Shown here piece after piece: positions 2,278 to 15,970 of a DNA stretch of 64,000 nucleotides. The DNA lies in assembly GCF_000423905.1 (NCBI RefSeq), contig NZ_AUIW01000003.1:1-64000 (forward strand), read 5' to 3'. Origin of the DNA: Thermus antranikianii DSM 12462 (GTDB taxonomy: Bacteria > Deinococcota > Deinococci > Deinococcales > Thermaceae). Numbering within the stretch: the first letter of the stretch is position 1; each line of letters begins with the position of its first letter. The notes under the pieces were generated by a model, which was given only the letters and a program-made list of their open reading frames with translations, searched no databases and was not told where the DNA came from. The position numbers and the translations under genes are program-made.

Positions 2278-3017
2278 CCTCTCACCTCCTCCAGGTAGGA
2301 AAGGTCCACCACCACCCTCTCCCCGGCCCTTGGCCCCTGGAGCACAGGCGCAGGGTTCCCGGGCTCCCCCAGGTGGGGAAGAAGGGCGCGGGCTTCTTGG
2401 CAGTCCTGGTCCAGGGTATAAAGGCTTGGGGTGATGAGCACGGGGAAACCCGCCCCCAAGGCGCTCAGGAGGCCACTGCGGGAATCCTCCACCACCACCC
2501 CCTCCTCCGGGGCCAAGCCCAGGTGCTCCTGGGCCAGGAGGTAGATGCCGGGATCCGGCTTCTTCCTTGCCACCACATCCCCGGCCAAAACCAGGGAAAA
2601 CCAGCCCAATAGACCCGTGCCTTCCAGAAAGGCCTCGGCGTTTTCCGGGCTGGTGGTGGTGCAAAGGGCGAGGGCCACCCCCGCCTCCCGGGCTTCCGCA
2701 AGAACCCGGCGAACCCCTGGCCGCAACGCAACCCCTTCCTCCCGCAGAAGCCTCAGGTAAAGGTCCGTCTTGTACCGGTGGACCTCGGCGATCTCCTCCC
2801 AGGAAAGCCCAGGCGCCCCGGGGGTTTCCTCCAGGGCTCGCTTCAGGCGCTCCTTCCCCCCTGTGGTCCAAAGCAGGCGGGCGTAGGTTTCCTGGTCCCA
2901 GTAAAAGGGAAGGCCAAAGTGGGCGAAGGCCCGGTTGAAGGCCTCCCGGTGGAGTTCCTCGGTTTCCGCCAGGGTGCCGTCCAAATCCCAAAGAAGGGCC
3001 TTCAGCTTCCCCACCAT
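2262..3017 (-). CDS. CbbY-like HAD phosphatase
   Basis: A 251-residue HAD-IA hydrolase. Motif I is DLDGT (residues about 10-14), motif II the Thr/Ser in LCTTTSPENAEAF, motif III KKPDPGIYLLA and motif IV VVVEDSRSG. The cap segment TEELHREAFN..F..FGLP..WDQETYARLL..TGGKERLK closely follows CbbY, the xylulose-1,5-bisphosphate phosphatase found beside Rubisco genes; beta-phosphoglucomutase-like activity is the main alternative. The ATG at 3017 would be the independent start, overlapping the ancestral aldolase stop by 16 bases. In the sequence as given, however, the aldolase frame runs straight into this gene and could produce one 515-residue fusion. No Rubisco gene is in the window. Confidence 0.8.
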   Translation of the reverse strand: MVGKLKALLWDLDGTLAETEELHREAFNRAFAHFGLPFYWDQETYARLLWTTGGKERLKRALEETPGAPGLSWEEIAEVHRYKTDLYLRLLREEGVALRPGVRRVLAEAREAGVALALCTTTSPENAEAFLEGTGLLGWFSLVLAGDVVARKKPDPGIYLLAQEHLGLAPEEGVVVEDSRSGLLSALGAGFPVLITPSLYTLDQDCQEARALLPHLGEPGNPAPVLQGPRAGERVVVDLSYLEEVRGWWST

Positions 3018-3809
3018 AGGCGCATCCGGGCCATGGCCAAGTCCTTGAGGCCTTCCTTCATGGCCGCCATCAAGCTCATAGTCTTCCGCCTCCACTTTCT
3101 TCAGAACCGAGGCCGCCTCGAGGGCCAGGTCCGCATACAGGTTGATCTTGCGAATCCCCCTCGCCACCAAGGCCCGGTACTCCTCCGGGCTCAGGCCCGA
3201 GGCCCCGTGGAGGACCAGGGGCACGGGAAGCTGGCCGAGTTCCTCCAAAAGGGGCAGGTTCAAGCGCACCGGCCCCTTGTGCAGGCCGTGGCGGGTGCCG
3301 ATGCTTACCGCCAAAGCATCCACCCCGGTCTCCTCCAGGTAGCGCCTGGCCTCCAAGGGATCCGTGTAGGCCACCGGTTCCTGGGAAACCTCCCCCCCGT
3401 AGCCTCCCGGCACCGCCCCCACCTCCCCTTCCACCGCAGCCCCGTAGGCCCGGGCCACCTCCACCGCCAGGCGGGTCAAGTGGATGTTCTCCTCGAGGGG
3501 CAGGTGGCTTCCATCCAGCATCACGCTGGTAAAGCCGAGCTTTAAGGCTTCCACCACCTCCCCGAGGCTTTCCCCATGGTCCAGGTGCAGGGCCACGGGT
3601 ACCCTGGCCTCTTCCGCCAAAACCCTAAGCCCAGGTGCCAGGGCCCTTAAAGGCGGCCCCCCCAAATGGGGAGCCACGCTGAGGATGACGGGAAGGCCCA
3701 GGGTTTCCGCTCCCTCCAGGATGGCCTCCGCCCACTCCAGGCCCACCACGTCAAAGGCCCCCACCGCCCGGCCCTTCTCCGGCAGAACCTCCCGCAAGGT
3801 GGCGAGCAT
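3002..3809 (-). CDS. Class II (zinc) ketose-bisphosphate aldolase, frame disrupted near its 3' end
   Basis: Class II fructose/tagatose-bisphosphate-type aldolase. Visible are the zinc-site region ALHLDHGES, the VEGEVGAVPGGYGG segment, SIGTRHGLHKG, LVLHGASGLS and the phosphate-binding KINLYADL. The first 246 or so residues are normal. At 3072-3073 one base appears extra: dropping it restores the expected ending EDYEL-MAAMKEGLKDLA...LWWGS and a TGA at 3002-3004 overlapping the phosphatase start. As written, the frame instead continues through a poor linker into the HAD phosphatase. A sequencing error, a real indel creating a fusion, or frameshifting are all possible. It starts nine bases after the comB remnant, with GGGGGAGGG before the ATG. 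Confidence 0.75.
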
Positions 3810-3817
3810 CCCTCCCC

Positions 3818-4283
3818 CTAACCTCCAAAGGCCATGCCCTCACCCCGCATCCCCAAGAAGCGCGGGACAACCCCATGGACGTCCACCCGGGCGCACTCGG
3901 CCACATCCTCCCCCAAACCCACCCCCACCAGGGCCTTCGCAGCCTCGCTGCTGGAAAGAGCAGGGAACGAAGAAGTCTCTGCCAGGAAAAGGGCCAGATG
4001 AGCCATCCCCCCTCGCGGGGAAAACCCCGAGGCCTCAAGGCGTTTCCCGCTAACCCCGGCAGGATAGAAGTCGTCCAGGGCCATCTAGCCCTCCTTCCTC
4101 GTCTCCCGTGCCTTCTCCACCACCGCCCGGGCGTTTTGCAAGGAACCGAGAAGGATGTGGCCTGGCTCCCAGGGCGGCATGGGCGGCCCGGGTGCCGTTG
4201 GTGGTGGCCCGGATTATACCCACCACCATGGCCGTGCCCCGGTAGGTGCCGGGAGAGGGCAAGGGATCCACCCTAAACCTCAT
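3818..4283 (-). pseudogene. comB: comB remnant (2-phosphosulfolactate phosphatase-like), decayed
   Basis: Fragments of the ComB family in order: a start overlapping the tkt stop (ATGA), then VVGIIRATT joined directly to NGTRAAHAALGA, i.e. the stretch normally lying between the RATTT and TTNGTRA motifs is missing. Near 4163 one extra base shifts the frame; in the restored frame GHILLGSLQNARAVVEKA follows, then an in-frame TAG at 4085-4087 where the usual VCAG segment is absent, then ALDDFY and the normal C-terminal part ending ECARVDVHGVVPRF. At least three lesions argue for a true pseudogene rather than a sequencing fault. ComB hydrolyses 2-phosphosulfolactate in coenzyme M and sulfolactate metabolism. 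Confidence 0.75.
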
Positions 4284-6235
4284 AGGAGTTCTTCCAAAGC
4301 TCCCGCCACCCTCTCCGGGGTGAAGCCCAGCTTCTCGTAGACCTCAGGGTAAGGGGCACTGGCCCCGAAGCGGTCCAGACCCACCACCTTGTGGGCGTAC
4401 CGCTCCCAGCCCAGGGTAGCCCCTGCCTCCACCGCCACGGTGGGGAGGCCTGGAGGAAGCACTTTCCGCCGGTACTCCTCAGGCTGGGCCTCAAAGAGTT
4501 CAAAGGAAGGCAGGCTCACCACCCGCACCCGGCGGCCTTTTTCCGCCAGGAGAGCCCTGGCCTTCAAGGCCAAGTGCACCTCACTGCCCGTAGCCACCAA
4601 AATCCCCTCAGGGTCTTCCGCATCCTCCAGGATGTAGCCTCCTTTTAAGGCTCCTTTGGCCTTTTCCGGGGAAAGGAGGGGCACCACTTGGCGGGTGAGG
4701 ATGAGAGCCGTAGGACCTTCCTTGCGCCTTAGGGCCACCTGCCAGGCATAGAAAGTTTCGTAGGCGTCGGCAGGACGGATGACCCAGAGGTTGGGCATAG
4801 CCCTAAGGCTCATAAGGTGCTCCACGGGCTGGTGGGTGGGGCCATCCTCCCCCAGGGCGATGGTGTCGTGGGTGAAGACGAAGACCGTGGGGGTACCCAT
4901 GAGGGCCGCCAAGCGGATAGCCGGGCGCATGTAGTCGGAGAAAACCAAGAAGGTGCCTCCGTAGGCCCGGTAGCCCCCGTGCAAGTTCAGGCCATTCAGG
5001 ATGGCCCCCATGGCATGCTCCCGCACCCCGAAGTGAAGGTACCGCCCTGTGGGGTTCTGCGGGGAGAAATCCGCCATACCCTGGGCTTGGGTGTTGTTGG
5101 AGGGGGTGAGGTCGGCGCTCCCACCAAGAAGCTCGGGCATCCTGGGGGCGATGGCATCCAGGGCCTTACCGCTGGCTGCCCGGGTGGCCACGGGCTTGTC
5201 AAAGGCTGGGGGTTCCTCGGGAAGGGAAGGGAGGCCGCCCTTTAAGCGGCGCAAAAGCTCCTGGTGGAGATCGGGATAGGCCCGGGCATAGGCCTCCATG
5301 AGCTCTTCCCAGGCTTCCTGCCACGCCCTTCCCTTCTCCCGCATGTCCATGTGCCGGTAAACCTCCTCGGGCACCTCAAAGGGAGGATAGGGCCAGCCCA
5401 GGTTTTTGCGGGTGGCCTCCACCGCCTCCGGACCCAAGGGCTCCCCGTGAGCTTTGTGGGAGTCCTGCTTGGGGGATCCGTAGCCGATGTGGCTCCGTAC
5501 AGCGATGAGGGAGGGCCTTTCGTCTAACTGGGCCAGGCGGATGGCGTGGCGGAGGGCCTCGAGGTCGTTGGCATCCTCCACCCTGAGGGTGTGCCATCCA
5601 TAGGCCCGGTAGCGCGCCAGGACATCCTCGGTGAAGGCCAGGTCGGTGGAGCCGTCAATGGAGATGTGGTTGTTATCCCAAAACACGATGAGCTTGGAAA
5701 GCCTCCAGTGGCCTGCCAAGGAGCTGGCCTCCCCGGAAACCCCCTCCATCAGGTCCCCATCCGAGGCCAGCACGTAGGTGTAGTGGTTCACCACCTCGTA
5801 GCCCGGGCGGTTGAACTCCGCAGCCAACTTCTTCTCCGCCAGGGCCATGCCCACGGCGGTGGATATACCCTGGCCCAGGGGGCCGGTGGTCACCTCCACC
5901 CCTGGGGTGTGGCCGTACTCGGGGTGGCCCGGGGTCTTGGAGCCCCACTGGCGAAAGCGCTTGAGCTCCTCGAGGGGAAGGTTATAGCCCGTGAGGTGGA
6001 GGATGGCGTAAAGAAGCATGGACCCATGCCCTGCGGAAAGGACAAAGCGGTCGCGATCCGGCCAGTTCGGGTCCAGGGGATTGTGGCGCATGACCTCGCG
6101 ATACAGAAGATAGGCCAGGGGAGCCATGGCCATGGGCATGCCGGGGTGGCCGCTTTTGGCCTTTTCCACGGCATCTATGGCCAAAAACCGTATGGCGTTC
6201 ACCGAAAGGCGGGTGAGGTCCTTGGTCTCGGTCAT
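4280..6235 (-). CDS. tkt: Transketolase
   Basis: A 651-residue thiamine-diphosphate enzyme that transfers two-carbon units between ketoses and aldoses in the non-oxidative pentose phosphate pathway. Seen: the N-terminal KSGHPGMPM region, the ThDP motif [11 protein letters not shown]...NNHISIDG, the pyrimidine domain ending in [21 protein letters not shown], and a C-terminal domain ([13 protein letters not shown]). Start at 6235 is chosen because GGAGG precedes it by a normal distance; a longer reading upstream lacks a site. It is the first gene of a minus-strand operon reaching to 985, and its stop overlaps the start of the comB remnant (ATGA). Confidence 0.95.
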
Positions 6236-11476: not shown

Positions 11477-12130
11477 CTACCCCTGCCGGCTTGGGCAGTA
11501 AGGCGCCAGGGAACAGGCCCCGCACCGGGGCCTACGGGCCAGGCACACGTACCGCCCGTGAAGGACCAGGGCGTGGTGGACGAACACCCACTCCTCCTTG
11601 GGGAAAAGGGCCTCCAGGTCGGCCCCGATCCTTTCGGGAGCCTTGGCCAGGGAAAGGCAAAGCCGCTTCGCCAGGCGGGCCACATGGGTGTCCACGGCGA
11701 TGCCCGGCACGCCGAAGGCCGCTCCCAGGACCACGGTGGCCGTCTTCCAACCCACCCCGGGCAACTTCATCAGGGCTTTTTTATCCCGTGGTACCTTCCC
11801 CCCATGCTCCTCCACCAGCCTCCGGGCCAGGGCCACCAGGTTTTTGGCCTTGGTGCGGTAAAGGCCGATGCGCCGGATATAGGGCTCCACCTCCTCGGGA
11901 GTCGCCTTGGCCAGGGCCTGGGGGTCGGGGAAACGGGCAAAGAGGGCCGGGGTGGCCTCGTTTACGCTTTTGTCCGTGGCCTGGGCGGAAAGCACCGTGG
12001 CCACCAAAAGCTGGTAGGGATTATTGTGCTTTAGCTCCGTTTTAGCCCCCGGATACGCCGCCTTAAGGGCCTTCAGGATGGCCAAGGCCCGCGCTTTCTT
12101 CTCCTTTTGCCCTTCCTTAGGGCAACCCAC
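11477..12130 (-). CDS. nth: Endonuclease III
   Basis: A 217-residue HhH-GPD DNA glycosylase/AP lyase of base excision repair, acting on oxidised pyrimidines. Seen: helix-hairpin-helix LPGVGWKTA with the catalytic Lys, VDTHVARLAKRL with the catalytic Asp, and the [4Fe-4S] pattern C-X6-C-X2-C-X5-C (CLARRPRCGACSLAPYC) at the C terminus. The start is a GTG seven bases from a TAGAGT -10 element, so the mRNA is probably leaderless. The promoter overlaps that of the divergent ASCH gene. Confidence 0.95.
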   Translation of the reverse strand: MGCPKEGQKEKKARALAILKALKAAYPGAKTELKHNNPYQLLVATVLSAQATDKSVNEATPALFARFPDPQALAKATPEEVEPYIRRIGLYRTKAKNLVALARRLVEEHGGKVPRDKKALMKLPGVGWKTATVVLGAAFGVPGIAVDTHVARLAKRLCLSLAKAPERIGADLEALFPKEEWVFVHHALVLHGRYVCLARRPRCGACSLAPYCPSRQG

Positions 12131-12153: not shown

Positions 12154-12519
12154 GTGGAAAAGCCCAAGCTGGGCCTCATCGTGCGGGAGCCCTACGCCAG
12201 CTTCATCGTGGACGGAAGGAAGACCTGGGAGATCCGCAAACGCCAGACCCGACACCGGGGTCCCTTGGGGATCATCACCGGAGGGTATCTCATCGGCCAG
12301 GCGGACCTGCTGGACGTGCAGGGCCCCTTCACCGTGGAGGAGCTTCTGGCCCACCCGGAAAAGCACCTGGCGGAGGAGGCCTTTCTCAGGGCCTATGCCG
12401 GGGAACAGCCCCTTTACGCCTGGGTTTTGCACAACGCCTTCCGCTACGAAAAACCCCTCTTCGTACCCAAAAAGCCCGGTAGGGTCATGTTCGTGGATCT
12501 TTCCGAGGTATGGCCATAA
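12154..12519 (+). CDS. ASCH domain protein (predicted RNA/nucleoside-binding)
   Basis: 121 residues forming one ASCH (PUA-like) domain: LGLIVREPYASFIVDGRKTWEIRK is the typical start, with the family Lys and Glu in the basic cleft, and GRVMFVDLSEVWP closes the barrel. ASCH proteins bind RNA or modified nucleosides; E. coli YqfB of this fold deacetylates N4-acetylcytidine. It starts with GTG from a leaderless promoter and overlaps the end of the convergent ABC-GNAT gene by 35 bases. That partner also has an acetyltransferase domain, so a joint role in nucleoside modification is a reasonable but untested idea. Confidence 0.85.
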   Translation: MEKPKLGLIVREPYASFIVDGRKTWEIRKRQTRHRGPLGIITGGYLIGQADLLDVQGPFTVEELLAHPEKHLAEEAFLRAYAGEQPLYAWVLHNAFRYEKPLFVPKKPGRVMFVDLSEVWP

Positions 12520-14221
12520 GCCCCCCGTACCCCACGAAGACCAGGAGGTCGGGATCCAAGGAAGCGATCACCTCCTGGCGGTGGGTGGCCACCACCAGGG
12601 TGATCCCCGCCTGGCGCACCAGCTTCCCAAGACCCAGGGCCACCCGCCTGGCGGTGGGCACGTCCAGGTGAGCGGCAAACTCGTCGATCAGGAGGAGGTC
12701 AGGGCGCTGGGCCAGGAGGAGGGCCAAGCGGTAGCGCTCCCGCTGGCCCGTGGAAAGCTCCTTCGGCCTGGCCCGGTAGAGCACGGCGTCGGAAAGCCCC
12801 ACCCGGTTTAACACCTCAATGGCCGCCCCCACATCCTGAAGCTGGCGGTAAAGCCGCTCCAAGATGGGCTCCTGGCCCAGGTCCACCTCCCGCTCCCCGG
12901 GAATATAGGCCACCCGCCTGCCCTCGGGTACCTCCACCTCTCCCCCATCCGGGGGCTCCCCCAGGAGGAGGCGAAGGAGGGTGGTCTTCCCCGCCCCGCT
13001 GGCCCCAACCAGGGCCACCACGCTGCCCGGGGGAACCTCGAGGTCCGCCTCCCTAAGAATCGCCCGCTCCAACACCCGGGCCTTGACCCCGAAGGCCGCA
13101 AGGGTTTCCTGCACCTCTGGGGAAAGGTCGGAAAGGTCCAGGTGGCTCCGGTAGCCTTTACGAACCCCCACCAGCCGGATGGACCCCGAAAGCCCCCGCA
13201 CCCTCCCGAAACGGGAAACGAAAAGCCTTCCCCCATGAGCCCTGGCGTAAGGGTCTTCCTTCAAAAACCGATCCAGGTAGTGCTCCGCCTCCTCCGTAAG
13301 GGGATAGGCCAGCACGGGCCTTCCCGAGGCGGTGTCGAAGAGGTAGCGGAAGCCCACCTTCTCAAAAAAGGGGTGGTAGCGGGCCATCTGGGCCACGGTG
13401 TACACCAGGTGTTTCTCCCGCCTTCCCTCGGGCACAGCCCGCTCCTTCACCCACGCCAAAGCCAGCTCCACCAAAAGAGCCCCCAGGCCCTCCGAGCGGT
13501 AGTCGGGGTGCACCACCACCCGGGCGATGCGGCTGGCGGCGGTGTGCACCCGGTCCAAAGCGCTTTCCCAGTCCTTCCCGCCCTCAAAGGTCGGGTGGAA
13601 CCAGTCTTTGGGAAAGATGCGCTCCCGGATGTTCCGCTCCACGCTCCCGGGAATCCTGCGGTGCATCCGGGGAATGGGGGGGTCCAAACGCACATAGCCC
13701 AGGATCCTGGGCTCAAAGGGTAAGCGCTCCACCAGCTCCAGGATGAGAAAGCGGCTGGCCGGGGTAGAACCCCTGATCTCCTTTAGCCGGGCCTCCCCCC
13801 CGCATTCGCAAAGGGGTTTGGTGTTGGCGAAGAGGGTCTCGCCACAGCGGGGGCAGACCCATAGGGCCACCACCTCCTTCTCCGAGGCATAGTGGTACTG
13901 CTCCAGCTCGGCAATGGCCTCGAAATCGGCCTCATACATGGCCTCCCGCGCACGGAGGCGGTAGCGGTACACCTCGCCCCCTAAGGGGCTTTCCCTCACG
14001 TGGTCCAGCGCCCTGGAAAATAAAGGCCACAAGGGGAAAGCCCCCTCGAGGGCGTACTCGTCAAAGTCCAGAAGGGGTTTGCGGTATTCCGTGGCCAGCC
14101 TGACCCGGTCCGCGGGGCGAAGCCATTTGGCCGCATCCCCGGTCATGCGAAGCCTCAGGCCCCCCTCGAGGAAAACCTCCCCGAACCAGCGCCAGTAAAC
14201 CCTCCGCCCCAAGACGCGCAT
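12485..14221 (-). CDS. Fusion of zinc ribbon, GNAT acetyltransferase and ABC ATPase
   Basis: About 578 residues with an unusual architecture, matching the group described in COGs as an ABC-type ATPase fused to a predicted acetyltransferase (COG2401). In order: an N-terminal region of about 120 residues of unknown fold; a zinc ribbon (C123-X2-C126, C138-X-C140); a GNAT domain with the acetyl-CoA loop RVVVHPDYRSEGLGALL at about 234-250; then an ABC ATPase with Walker A GASGAGKTT (406-414), signature LSTGQ (489-493), Walker B LLLIDE (509-514) and a switch His near 547. There are no membrane segments, so it is not a transporter. The ATG at 14221 is preferred to a GTG seven codons earlier. An IS element sits 27 bases upstream of the start and may have changed its expression. 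Confidence 0.88.
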   Translation of the reverse strand: MRVLGRRVYWRWFGEVFLEGGLRLRMTGDAAKWLRPADRVRLATEYRKPLLDFDEYALEGAFPLWPLFSRALDHVRESPLGGEVYRYRLRAREAMYEADFEAIAELEQYHYASEKEVVALWVCPRCGETLFANTKPLCECGGEARLKEIRGSTPASRFLILELVERLPFEPRILGYVRLDPPIPRMHRRIPGSVERNIRERIFPKDWFHPTFEGGKDWESALDRVHTAASRIARVVVHPDYRSEGLGALLVELALAWVKERAVPEGRREKHLVYTVAQMARYHPFFEKVGFRYLFDTASGRPVLAYPLTEEAEHYLDRFLKEDPYARAHGGRLFVSRFGRVRGLSGSIRLVGVRKGYRSHLDLSDLSPEVQETLAAFGVKARVLERAILREADLEVPPGSVVALVGASGAGKTTLLRLLLGEPPDGGEVEVPEGRRVAYIPGEREVDLGQEPILERLYRQLQDVGAAIEVLNRVGLSDAVLYRARPKELSTGQRERYRLALLLAQRPDLLLIDEFAAHLDVPTARRVALGLGKLVRQAGITLVVATHRQEVIASLDPDLLVFVGYGGLMAIPRKDPRT

Positions 14222-14248
14222 CGTGCCCCCATGGTACCCCACTTAATG

Positions 14249-15209
14249 CCTTCGTGTGCTACTTGACCTAGACCCTCGGGGTGTGAAAAAAGAGGGGGTG
14301 CCATGCGGCAAGATCGTGAGCACCCCCAGAACGTAGCCTTTGGCTGACCTACTATCTTGACGCAGAGACCCTTCTGGTGGCTACCTACATCTGGGTAGAT
14401 GACGAACTGAAGGCCCTGCAGGCCCAAGGCTTCAAGCTCCCCCCAAAGCAAAAGCACCAGAAAGCCACCCTGGCCGAGCTCCTGACCCTCGCCATCTTTT
14501 TGCTCCTCCAGGGCCAGGACCTCGCCAAAGGCTACCTGGCCGCCAAGACCACCCTCAAGGCCTACTTCCCCTCCCTCCCCCACCCCAAGATGTTCCCCTT
14601 CGGGGAAGCAGCTCTCGCTTCTACCGGGTCCTTCAGAAGGCCCAGGGGCTGTTGGCTCACCTGGCCATGAGGCTCTCCGGGGGAAAAGGCCTCCTGCAGG
14701 TGGTGGACCTTAAACCCATCCCCCTGGCTCACGGCCACCGGATTCACGGCCTCTCTCTTCCTGAGGCCGCCGTGGGGGTGGGACCCCTGGGGGCTTTCGC
14801 GGGCTACGTTCTCATGCCGGTGATGAACGAGCGGGGCCTCTTTTTTCGTTGGGCCATTCTCCCCGGCAACGCCCGGGAGACCTGGGGGAGGGACCTGCTG
14901 GACGGTCTGCCCGCGGTCTTGGGGGACCGGGGCTTCCGCTGGGTCCAGGGGGTCAAGACCCCGCCCTATCGGGTCAGGGGAGGGAAGGTGGTGGAGACGG
15001 GGTGGAGAGAGTGGATGGGGAGGGTCAGGAACTGGATAGAGACCCGCTTCAGCGTGATGGTCCGGTCTTTGGGGCTTCATCGGATAGAAGCGCGGTCCTA
15101 CTGGGGTCTGGTGGCCCGGGTGAACCTCATCCTGCTCGTTCACAACCTCATCCGTAGCCGGGTGCTCCTGAAGATGGCCGGGGTGGAGCTATGAGGTAGC
15201 ACACGAAGG
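14249..15209 (+). mobile_element. IS element, IS982-like, 961 bp
   Basis: Bounded by inverted repeats CCTTCGTGTGCTAC (14249-14262) and GTAGCACACGAAGG (15196-15209). The bases AATG occur on both sides (14245-14248 and 15210-15213) as an apparent 4-bp target duplication. It carries one transposase gene in two frames. It landed between the ABC-GNAT gene (start 14221, minus) and the exported-protein gene (start 15227, plus). Confidence 0.8.
14377..15194 (+). pseudogene. IS982-like transposase, frameshifted
   Basis: The first frame (14377 to about 14605) reads ATYIWVDDELKAL...AELLTLAIFLLLQGQDLAKGYLAAK...AYFPSLPHPKMF, which resembles the N-terminal half of IS982-family transposases. Around 14602-14612 the reading must change frame, after which SSRFYRVLQKAQGLLAHLAMRLSG..LQVVDLKP..L.HGHRI supplies the DDE core and DRGFRWVQGVKT, ending in LLVHNLIRSRVLLKMAGVEL at 15194. 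One base indel separates the halves, so the copy is probably inactive unless frameshifting is used. Family assignment is moderate. Confidence 0.75.
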
Positions 15210-15214
15210 AATGT

Positions 15215-15220
15215 TAAGCT
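15215..15220 (+). promoter_or_regulatory. -10 element of the exported-protein gene
   Basis: TAAGCT, six bases before the ATG at 15227, implies a leaderless transcript. It lies just outside the right IS end, so any -35 contact would fall inside the IS. Confidence 0.5.
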
Positions 15221-15226
15221 CATACC

Positions 15227-15970
15227 ATGAAACGATCCCTTGCCCTGATTCTGGCCTTGTTCAGCCCGTTGGCCCTCACCCAGTCCCCCAAGGAAGCGGT
15301 GGAATCCGCCCTCAAGGCCGCCTTCGGCGACTGGAGGGGCAAGACCTACCAGGGCCTGGACCGGGTAGTCTACTTCACCCCCGAGGGCCAGGAAACGCAG
15401 GTCTTGCGGATCCGGACCTACCTTGACCTCGGCGGTTGCCGCCTTCGCCTGGAGATCGCCCCCGAGGGCGAGAAGGCGCCCGCCACCCTGGTCTACACCC
15501 GGGAGCGCCAGTTCCTCCGCCTCCCGGACGGCAGGGAAACCCCCCTGGACGACCGCCTCTTCCTGGAGCTCATCTTCGCCTGGCAGACAGGCTTCACCGG
15601 GGCCGCCTTCGGTTATGACGAGGTGGCTTCCCTGGGGAAAGTGACCCTCCCCGATGGCAGCGAGGCGGAGGCCTACCGGGTGGCGCGCCGGTCCCACGCC
15701 TGTCTCCCCAAGGGAGTGCTGGAGGCTAAACCCTACGAGGGAGAGGTCTACGTACAGGAAGGGAAGGTGGTGGGGGAGGGGCACTTCTCCCCCGTGCTCG
15801 GGATGGAGACCCTGACCCTCTACCGGGACCTTCGGAAGGAGGGGAGCGCGGGCTATCCCGTGAGGTCGGAGGGCTACCTCCGGACGGGGGACCGGTGGGT
15901 CCTCTTCTCCCGGGGAGAAACCCTGGAAGCCCAGGTGAGCCTCCCCCTGGAGGAAGCCCTATTCCGCTGA
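15227..15970 (+). CDS. Exported protein, possibly LolA/LppX-like
   Basis: 247 residues with a signal peptide (MKRSLALILALFSPLALTQS, cleavage near residue 18-20). The mature part has a helix (EAVESALKAAF) followed by alternating beta strands and two Cys residues (LGGCRLRLE and SHACLPKG). The pattern of an exported beta-rich protein that begins with a short helix recalls outer-membrane lipoprotein carrier folds, but the similarity is weak and I would call it hypothetical. It starts right after the IS end. It converges on the predicted beta-barrel gene with only two bases between the stops. Confidence 0.6.
   Translation: MKRSLALILALFSPLALTQSPKEAVESALKAAFGDWRGKTYQGLDRVVYFTPEGQETQVLRIRTYLDLGGCRLRLEIAPEGEKAPATLVYTRERQFLRLPDGRETPLDDRLFLELIFAWQTGFTGAAFGYDEVASLGKVTLPDGSEAEAYRVARRSHACLPKGVLEAKPYEGEVYVQEGKVVGEGHFSPVLGMETLTLYRDLRKEGSAGYPVRSEGYLRTGDRWVLFSRGETLEAQVSLPLEEALFR

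Follow-up and report, generated by a model that had tools for sequence, protein, structure and literature searches.

The window, a stretch of 64,000 nucleotides of Thermus antranikianii DSM 12462 (contig NZ_AUIW01000003.1, positions 1 to 64,000), carries two genes that meet tail to tail. The initial annotation had described them as an ASCH gene beside a gene for a zinc-ribbon/GNAT/ABC-ATPase fusion, which was borne out by the open reading frames and the Pfam matches, and the 35-base overlap that it gave is exact from the open reading frame coordinates. A GTG at 14242, upstream of the ATG, is an alternative start of the GNAT-ABC gene, from which the product would have 585 residues. Both genes are conserved throughout Thermus and further out, with dN/dS of about 0.08-0.15 in the comparisons that had enough substitutions, so that neither open reading frame merely shadows the other on the opposite strand. 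The window genome is near T. scotoductus; L069 (DSM 8553) shows 99% identity across 5.3 kb. The genes, domains and motifs are located as follows.

12154..12519, + strand: ASCH gene, 121 aa from a GTG start, product closely related to TTHA0113
12214..12237, + strand: ASCH signature octapeptide GRKTWEIR (GxKxxExR), with Glu at the place of the nucleophile Thr of YqfB
12485..12519, no strand assigned: tail-to-tail overlap of the ASCH and GNAT-ABC genes, 35 bases
12485..14221, − strand: GNAT-ABC ATPase gene, 578 aa from the ATG at 14221
12542..13114, − strand: single ABC ATPase domain, residues about 370-560 (Pfam PF00005)
12680..12697, − strand: Walker B LLLIDE (sequence, homologue table)
12743..12757, − strand: ABC signature LSTGQ (sequence, homologue table)
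12980..13006, − strand: Walker A GASGAGKTT (sequence, homologue table)
13247..13936, − strand: GNAT domain, residues about 96-325 (Pfam, AlphaFold, Foldseek)
13481..13498, − strand: acyl-CoA-binding motif R242-x-x-G245-x-G247, invariant among tabulated homologues
13787..13861, − strand: zinc ribbon C123, C126, C138, C140, within the GNAT domain (sequence, AlphaFold)
13889..13894, − strand: His110-Tyr111 in the first GNAT helix, candidate active-site pair (homologue alignment)
13937..14221, − strand: N-terminal beta-rich domain, residues 1-95 (AlphaFold; without Pfam match)

The 578-residue protein matched GNAT (PF13508 and PF00583) and ABC_tran (PF00005), all above the Pfam cut-off, and we take it to be COG2401-like, i.e. 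a fusion of an ABC ATPase with a predicted acetyltransferase. Residues 1-370 were modelled with confidence by AlphaFold (pLDDT 90.7). The Pfam matches, the RxxGxG motif and Foldseek hits that are themselves GNATs place the protein in the GNAT superfamily, and the invariance of the motif makes acyl-CoA chemistry likely. In the AlphaFold model, the zinc ribbon sits after the first GNAT helix (residues 97-111); its four cysteines are intact here and degenerate or partly lost in several relatives. The His110-Tyr111 pair was kept in every tabulated homologue except one (G051/L112, described below), and the ABC half contains a switch histidine. A reading of the sequence alone gave no membrane segments. 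The presence of one soluble ABC domain, together with the finding that no permease recurs as a neighbour across phyla, argues against an ABC transporter. An AtaT-type toxin-antitoxin module does not fit either, since the GNAT is part of a 578-residue multidomain protein and the partner is an ASCH protein, with no RHH or HTH antitoxin.

The smaller protein matched ASCH (PF04266) at 33.5 bits for a cut-off of 21.2. Together with its octapeptide, which conforms to the ASCH motif GxKxx[ETS]xR (PMC9599836), this match places it among the ASCH domains. The GxKxxExR class is that of ASC-1, EOLA1, ZmASCH and TTHA0113 (PMC6803910). TTHA0113 of T. thermophilus HB8, whose structure is solved (PDB 1wk2, 2dp9), is of the same family (E about 2e-65) and class as the window ASCH protein, with no essential difference between them.

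Pairing of the two genes across genomes

Short peptide patterns were scanned against 85,000 species genomes, a search that was not exhaustive and returned 66 loci. The initial annotation had made its proposal depend on a conserved neighbourhood, and the claim was not refuted: ASCH and GNAT-ABC are adjacent or fused in several phyla, the pairing being present in Thermus, other Thermaceae, Thermomicrobia, Anaerolineae, WOR-3 and several archaea. Four arrangements were found. The pair is convergent, with ASCH beyond the 3' end of GNAT-ABC, at most Deinococcota loci and at five Thermomicrobia-type loci (L068, L120, L121, L124, L129), the Thermomicrobia pairs including NC_011961; the convergent ASCH mostly adjoins its partner directly and lies about 3 kb off in L079 and L082. 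The genes are divergent in L172 (Thermoproteota). L094 (Euryarchaeota), L100 (Diapherotrites) and L179 (Thermoproteota) have a co-directional ASCH gene immediately upstream of GNAT-ABC. At six loci, five in Chloroflexota (L101, L102, L107, L110, L116) and one in WOR-3 (L114), a single open reading frame encodes GNAT-ABC-ASCH, with ASCH as the C-terminus of the polypeptide; the L114 fusion gave a confident AlphaFold fold (pLDDT 89.4).

Within the Thermus genus group, both genes were present in 22/27 genomes and neither in 5/27, so that presence and absence agree in all 27. Joint loss is weak evidence alone because the genes touch, and rearrangement is the stronger evidence for the link. Both genes were fragmented or frame-broken in G016, as was GNAT-ABC in G012 and G024, where assembly breaks are possible. 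Distances for ASCH and GNAT-ABC were correlated with r = 0.92 over 31 genomes, the pairs not being independent. The link between ASCH and GNAT-ABC is real: it exceeds chance and extends past the window. Since the two are fused elsewhere, the Thermus genes belong to one ancient system of thermophiles.

One Thermaceae lineage (G051 = L065/L112) has no ASCH gene. Its GNAT-ABC gene (5983-7749 in L112) is an open frame in which Walker B (Asp-Glu changed to Gly-Asp) and the switch histidine are lost and the surround of Walker A is altered. It is the only tabulated homologue with His110-Tyr111 replaced (by Asn-Phe), and no other branch of the GNAT-ABC tree comes near it in length. This parallel decay, seen in one lineage, suggests that the parts of the system depend on each other.

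In a maximum-likelihood tree, the ASCH-linked lineages were a small archaeal group and all bacteria except the L112 and L081 rows, the latter being truncated by its contig end. A crenarchaeal clade of 36 rows has no adjacent ASCH, and the placing of the root decides which state came first. In most of the 11 ASCH-less crenarchaeal genomes that were searched, this ASCH subfamily was absent elsewhere too. ASCH is thus not obligatory in crenarchaea, where most GNAT-ABC genes are without it as a neighbour. The switch histidine was present in 30/31 ASCH-linked proteins compared to 11/37 readable proteins without a linked ASCH, the remainder having Asn, which suggests that proteins lacking a linked ASCH may use ATP differently. 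A trans-acting ASCH protein in the ASCH-less crenarchaea was rejected: the subfamily is absent from most of the 11 genomes searched, and the PF04266 count in Thermoproteota (matches in 24/27 GNAT-ABC-positive vs 8/27 negative genomes) is confounded by lineage and did not serve as evidence. The ten best-matching Thermoproteota PF04266 sequences, all from GNAT-ABC-positive genomes, were longer ASCH proteins with a TxR, not an ExR, octapeptide. Many Thermoproteota genomes contain a family of crenarchaeal ASCH proteins (L162-L171) whose open frames span about 195-280 residues and which combine the TxR octapeptide with an extended C-terminus.

The named hosts in the scan were Thermus, Thermaceae, Thermomicrobium, Desulfurococcales, Pyrodictiaceae, Acidilobaceae and others, and several hosts were MAGs. 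All named host groups are, as far as known, thermophilic. GNAT-ABC was found in 32/398 sampled Thermoproteota genomes. A phage or viral origin was rejected, no relative of GNAT-ABC having been found in phage records or IMG/VR contigs, and mobile spread was set aside, the sole plasmid match being the Thermomicrobium megaplasmid.

Comparison with TmcA and other acetyltransferase systems

Foldseek searches of the PDB ranked NAT10 and Kre33 first (E about 1e-5), with AtaT, RimI and others within a factor of a few. In hhalign comparisons, archaeal TmcA scored above most of 28 control GNATs with overlapping values (best TmcA 50.1, best control 44.8), and PF13718 gave no match to GNAT-ABC in Pfam at E up to 1. 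These three results indicate that likeness to NAT10/TmcA is not clearly above that to generic GNATs, and homology to TmcA by profile comparison was therefore kept as a lead only. Also as a lead only, the first-helix HY, the HPDYRxxGxG stretch and the C-terminal SGxPxLxYPL resemble by eye AHYRN, HPxxQGxGIG and SGEYTLLVIKPL of TmcA. The initial annotation had proposed that one of the two proteins may write an acyl mark. The intact CoA-binding and ABC motifs of GNAT-ABC and its NAT10-like fold are consistent with its being the writer, but its likeness to TmcA is barely above that to generic GNATs.

Like GNAT-ABC, TmcA/Kre33/NAT10 combine a GNAT and an ATPase in one chain, and the first helix of their GNAT contains an HY pair. 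They differ in having a helicase and DUF1726 where GNAT-ABC has an ABC domain, a zinc ribbon and a beta-rich N-terminal domain; no RecD-like helicase module or DUF1726 was found in GNAT-ABC, whose ATPase is of the ABC type (PF00005). In the control set of Thermus composti, which has the pair (L073), there was no PF13718 protein. As crenarchaea have both TmcA and GNAT-ABC, the latter does not merely replace the former. Association of ASCH with cytidine acetyltransferase genes is also seen outside this system, since in two Thermoproteota ASCH lies directly after tmcA, with a 32-base overlap in L210 (tmcA-ASCH at 2324-5000) and 8 bases apart in L211 (2090-4730). The L210 ASCH protein carries the YqfB-like octapeptide GRKTSTIR, which makes it a candidate for hydrolysing the ac4C written by the neighbouring gene product.

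Systems of the GNAT-EVE/ASCH type have reportedly been proposed by Iyer and colleagues. In the GNAT-EVE/ASCH/AAA_17 systems discussed in PMC7641849, the GNAT is joined to a PUA-like domain, and some operons contain ASCH and an ATPase. In contrast, Pfam gave no EVE domain fused to the GNAT in GNAT-ABC, PIN is lacking, and ABC takes the place of AAA_17; the pair resides in thermophile chromosomes and not in prophages or beside restriction systems. A Mom-like GNAT was also rejected, the PHROGs matches being weak generic acetyltransferases only.

Proposed function and alternatives

The domain make-up and motifs, the coupling and fusion with ASCH, the shared decay and the thermophilic range, all shown by computation, are consistent with a two-component ATP-driven acyltransferase of thermophiles. 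We propose, at about even chances, that it acts on RNA, most likely tRNA or rRNA. The GNAT domain would take an acyl group, presumably acetyl, from acyl-CoA, while a dimer of ABC domains would use ATP in loading a structured substrate, remodelling it or releasing it, a role that may parallel that of the helicase module in TmcA. ASCH, a PUA-like pocket protein, would serve as an adaptor or recognise the substrate, unless it reads the product; in Anaerolineae and WOR-3 ASCH is part of the GNAT-ABC chain itself. Our best guess is a reader or, better, an adaptor, whose role may be comparable to that of Tan1/THUMPD1, the partners of the acetyltransferases Kre33/NAT10 (PMC9957541). Also in favour are the invariant CoA motif, NAT10 and Kre33 as the best Foldseek hits, the ASCH genes directly behind TmcA genes in two Thermoproteota, and RNA binding by ASCH proteins, of which ZmASCH is an example (PMC5615036). 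ac4C is tied to thermotolerance in T. kodakarensis, which becomes heat-sensitive on loss of its writer (PMC6393311); an RNA-stabilising role of the pair would be in keeping with this. A reading that takes in DNA as well as RNA, namely an unrecognised acylation machine in which the ABC ATPase drives the GNAT, ASCH recognises the substrate and the hosts carry a novel acylated nucleoside, is possible, with the chances leaning against it. Several points count against the proposal: most crenarchaeal GNAT-ABC genes have no ASCH neighbour, the NAT10/TmcA likeness is not clearly above that to generic GNATs, neighbour clustering across phyla revealed neither a known RNA gene nor an operon for RNA modification accompanying the pair, and to our knowledge ac4C has not been reported from Thermus RNA.

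In the model of the initial annotation, one protein writes the mark and the other reads or erases it. The writer remains plausible and the reader or adaptor is retained; the eraser of YqfB type found no support. YqfB, the N4-acetylcytidine amidohydrolase of E. coli, shares the ASCH fold and octapeptide with the window protein and requires Lys21, Thr24 and Glu74 (PMC6972931). That ASCH removes an N4-acyl group added by GNAT-ABC is suggested by Lys23, Arg28 and His71, at places comparable with Lys21, Arg26 and His70 of YqfB, and by the octapeptide of the tmcA-adjacent ASCH in L210. However, the nucleophile Thr24 corresponds to Glu26 here, and to Glu in 12/12 aligned family members, and the acid Glu74 has no conserved counterpart in the family alignment, so that only the lysine of the triad is kept; fusion of a writer with the hydrolase that undoes its work would moreover be self-defeating. 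An eraser role is thus very unlikely. About equally improbable is an ASCH ribonuclease restrained or aimed by GNAT-ABC, for instance to control RNA quality or to form a toxin-antitoxin pair. ZmASCH, a single-strand-specific ribonuclease of the same fold and GxKxxExR class (PMC5615036, PMC6803910), binds nucleic acids and cleaves single-stranded RNA, but its measured activity is weak and its gene context is stand-alone. In addition, the pair has no toxin-antitoxin features and no DNA-binding antitoxin, its distribution in Thermus is core-like, and a toxin-antitoxin fusion would be odd.

The substrate could also be a protein, possibly ribosomal, if a RimI-like GNAT were brought to the ribosome by an ABC domain docking like ABC-F/ABCE, with ASCH binding rRNA to position the complex. 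RimI, Ard1 and AtaT folds come close behind NAT10 in Foldseek, and ABC-F proteins such as YheS and EttA are the best PDB sequence matches of the ABC domain. The latter match weighs little because ABC domains are all alike and NCBIfam ranks the transporter ATPase AztA first, and a PUA-like base-binding domain fused to GNAT-ABC points to a nucleic acid rather than a protein, which leaves protein acetylation rather unlikely. Acylation of DNA bases as a self mark or defence, on the model of the GNAT-EVE/ASCH systems (PMC7641849), would use a parts list similar in kind (GNAT, PUA-like reader, ASCH protein, ATPase), but we consider it improbable: the neighbours that recur next to the pair across phyla include no restriction enzyme, nuclease or defence gene, PADLOC matches were limited to ABC/AAA domains plus one weak ASCH match, GNAT-ABC was not found in phages or viral contigs, and the pair is widely retained in Thermus under purifying selection. 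A defence system was rejected, as PADLOC and neighbour clustering gave nothing specific. There is next to no chance that the two genes are unrelated neighbours; convergent genes need no common function and the crenarchaeal clade has no ASCH neighbour, but six fusions and four arrangements across phyla refute this explanation.

If the proposed acyltransferase is correct, Thermus, which is amenable to genetics and apparently lacks TmcA, would gain its own nucleic-acid acylation machine, and an ABC ATPase would be linked to nucleic-acid modification. A function would also be provided for the solved TTHA0113 structure and for an acyltransferase-ATPase family spread through archaea and bacteria of hot environments. 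The two-part system is real and apparently undescribed: our literature search found no description of it or of COG2401, a possible prior mention being Iyer et al. (2005/06 on ASCH, 2013 on base modification).

Other neighbours of the genes

Neighbour clustering revealed no conserved third partner across phyla, and the genes next to GNAT-ABC in Desulfurococcales (Maf, AGOG DNA glycosylase, creatininase-like, radical SAM) are lineage-bound and were set aside as partners. The Maf nucleotide pyrophosphatase gene lies directly downstream of GNAT-ABC at L103:5977-6633, with relatives in L096, L099, L106 and L109; it may indicate a link to modified nucleotides or reflect lineage inheritance. The AGOG gene is near GNAT-ABC in several Desulfurococcales (L093, L096, L099, L103, L104, L106, L109). 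In the window, a transposase-like stretch (14260-15230, open reading frames 14377-14670 and 14652-15194) lies just upstream of the GNAT-ABC start. It has a weak DDE_Tnp_1 match, is apparently frame-broken and occurs as a single genomic copy; it is common to T. scotoductus (L039, L069) and unaligned in the next relative, L040. The start of the ASCH gene is adjoined by a gene for Endonuclease III (HhH-GPD, 4Fe-4S motif; 11477-12130, − strand), and some other Thermus loci also have a gene at this place.
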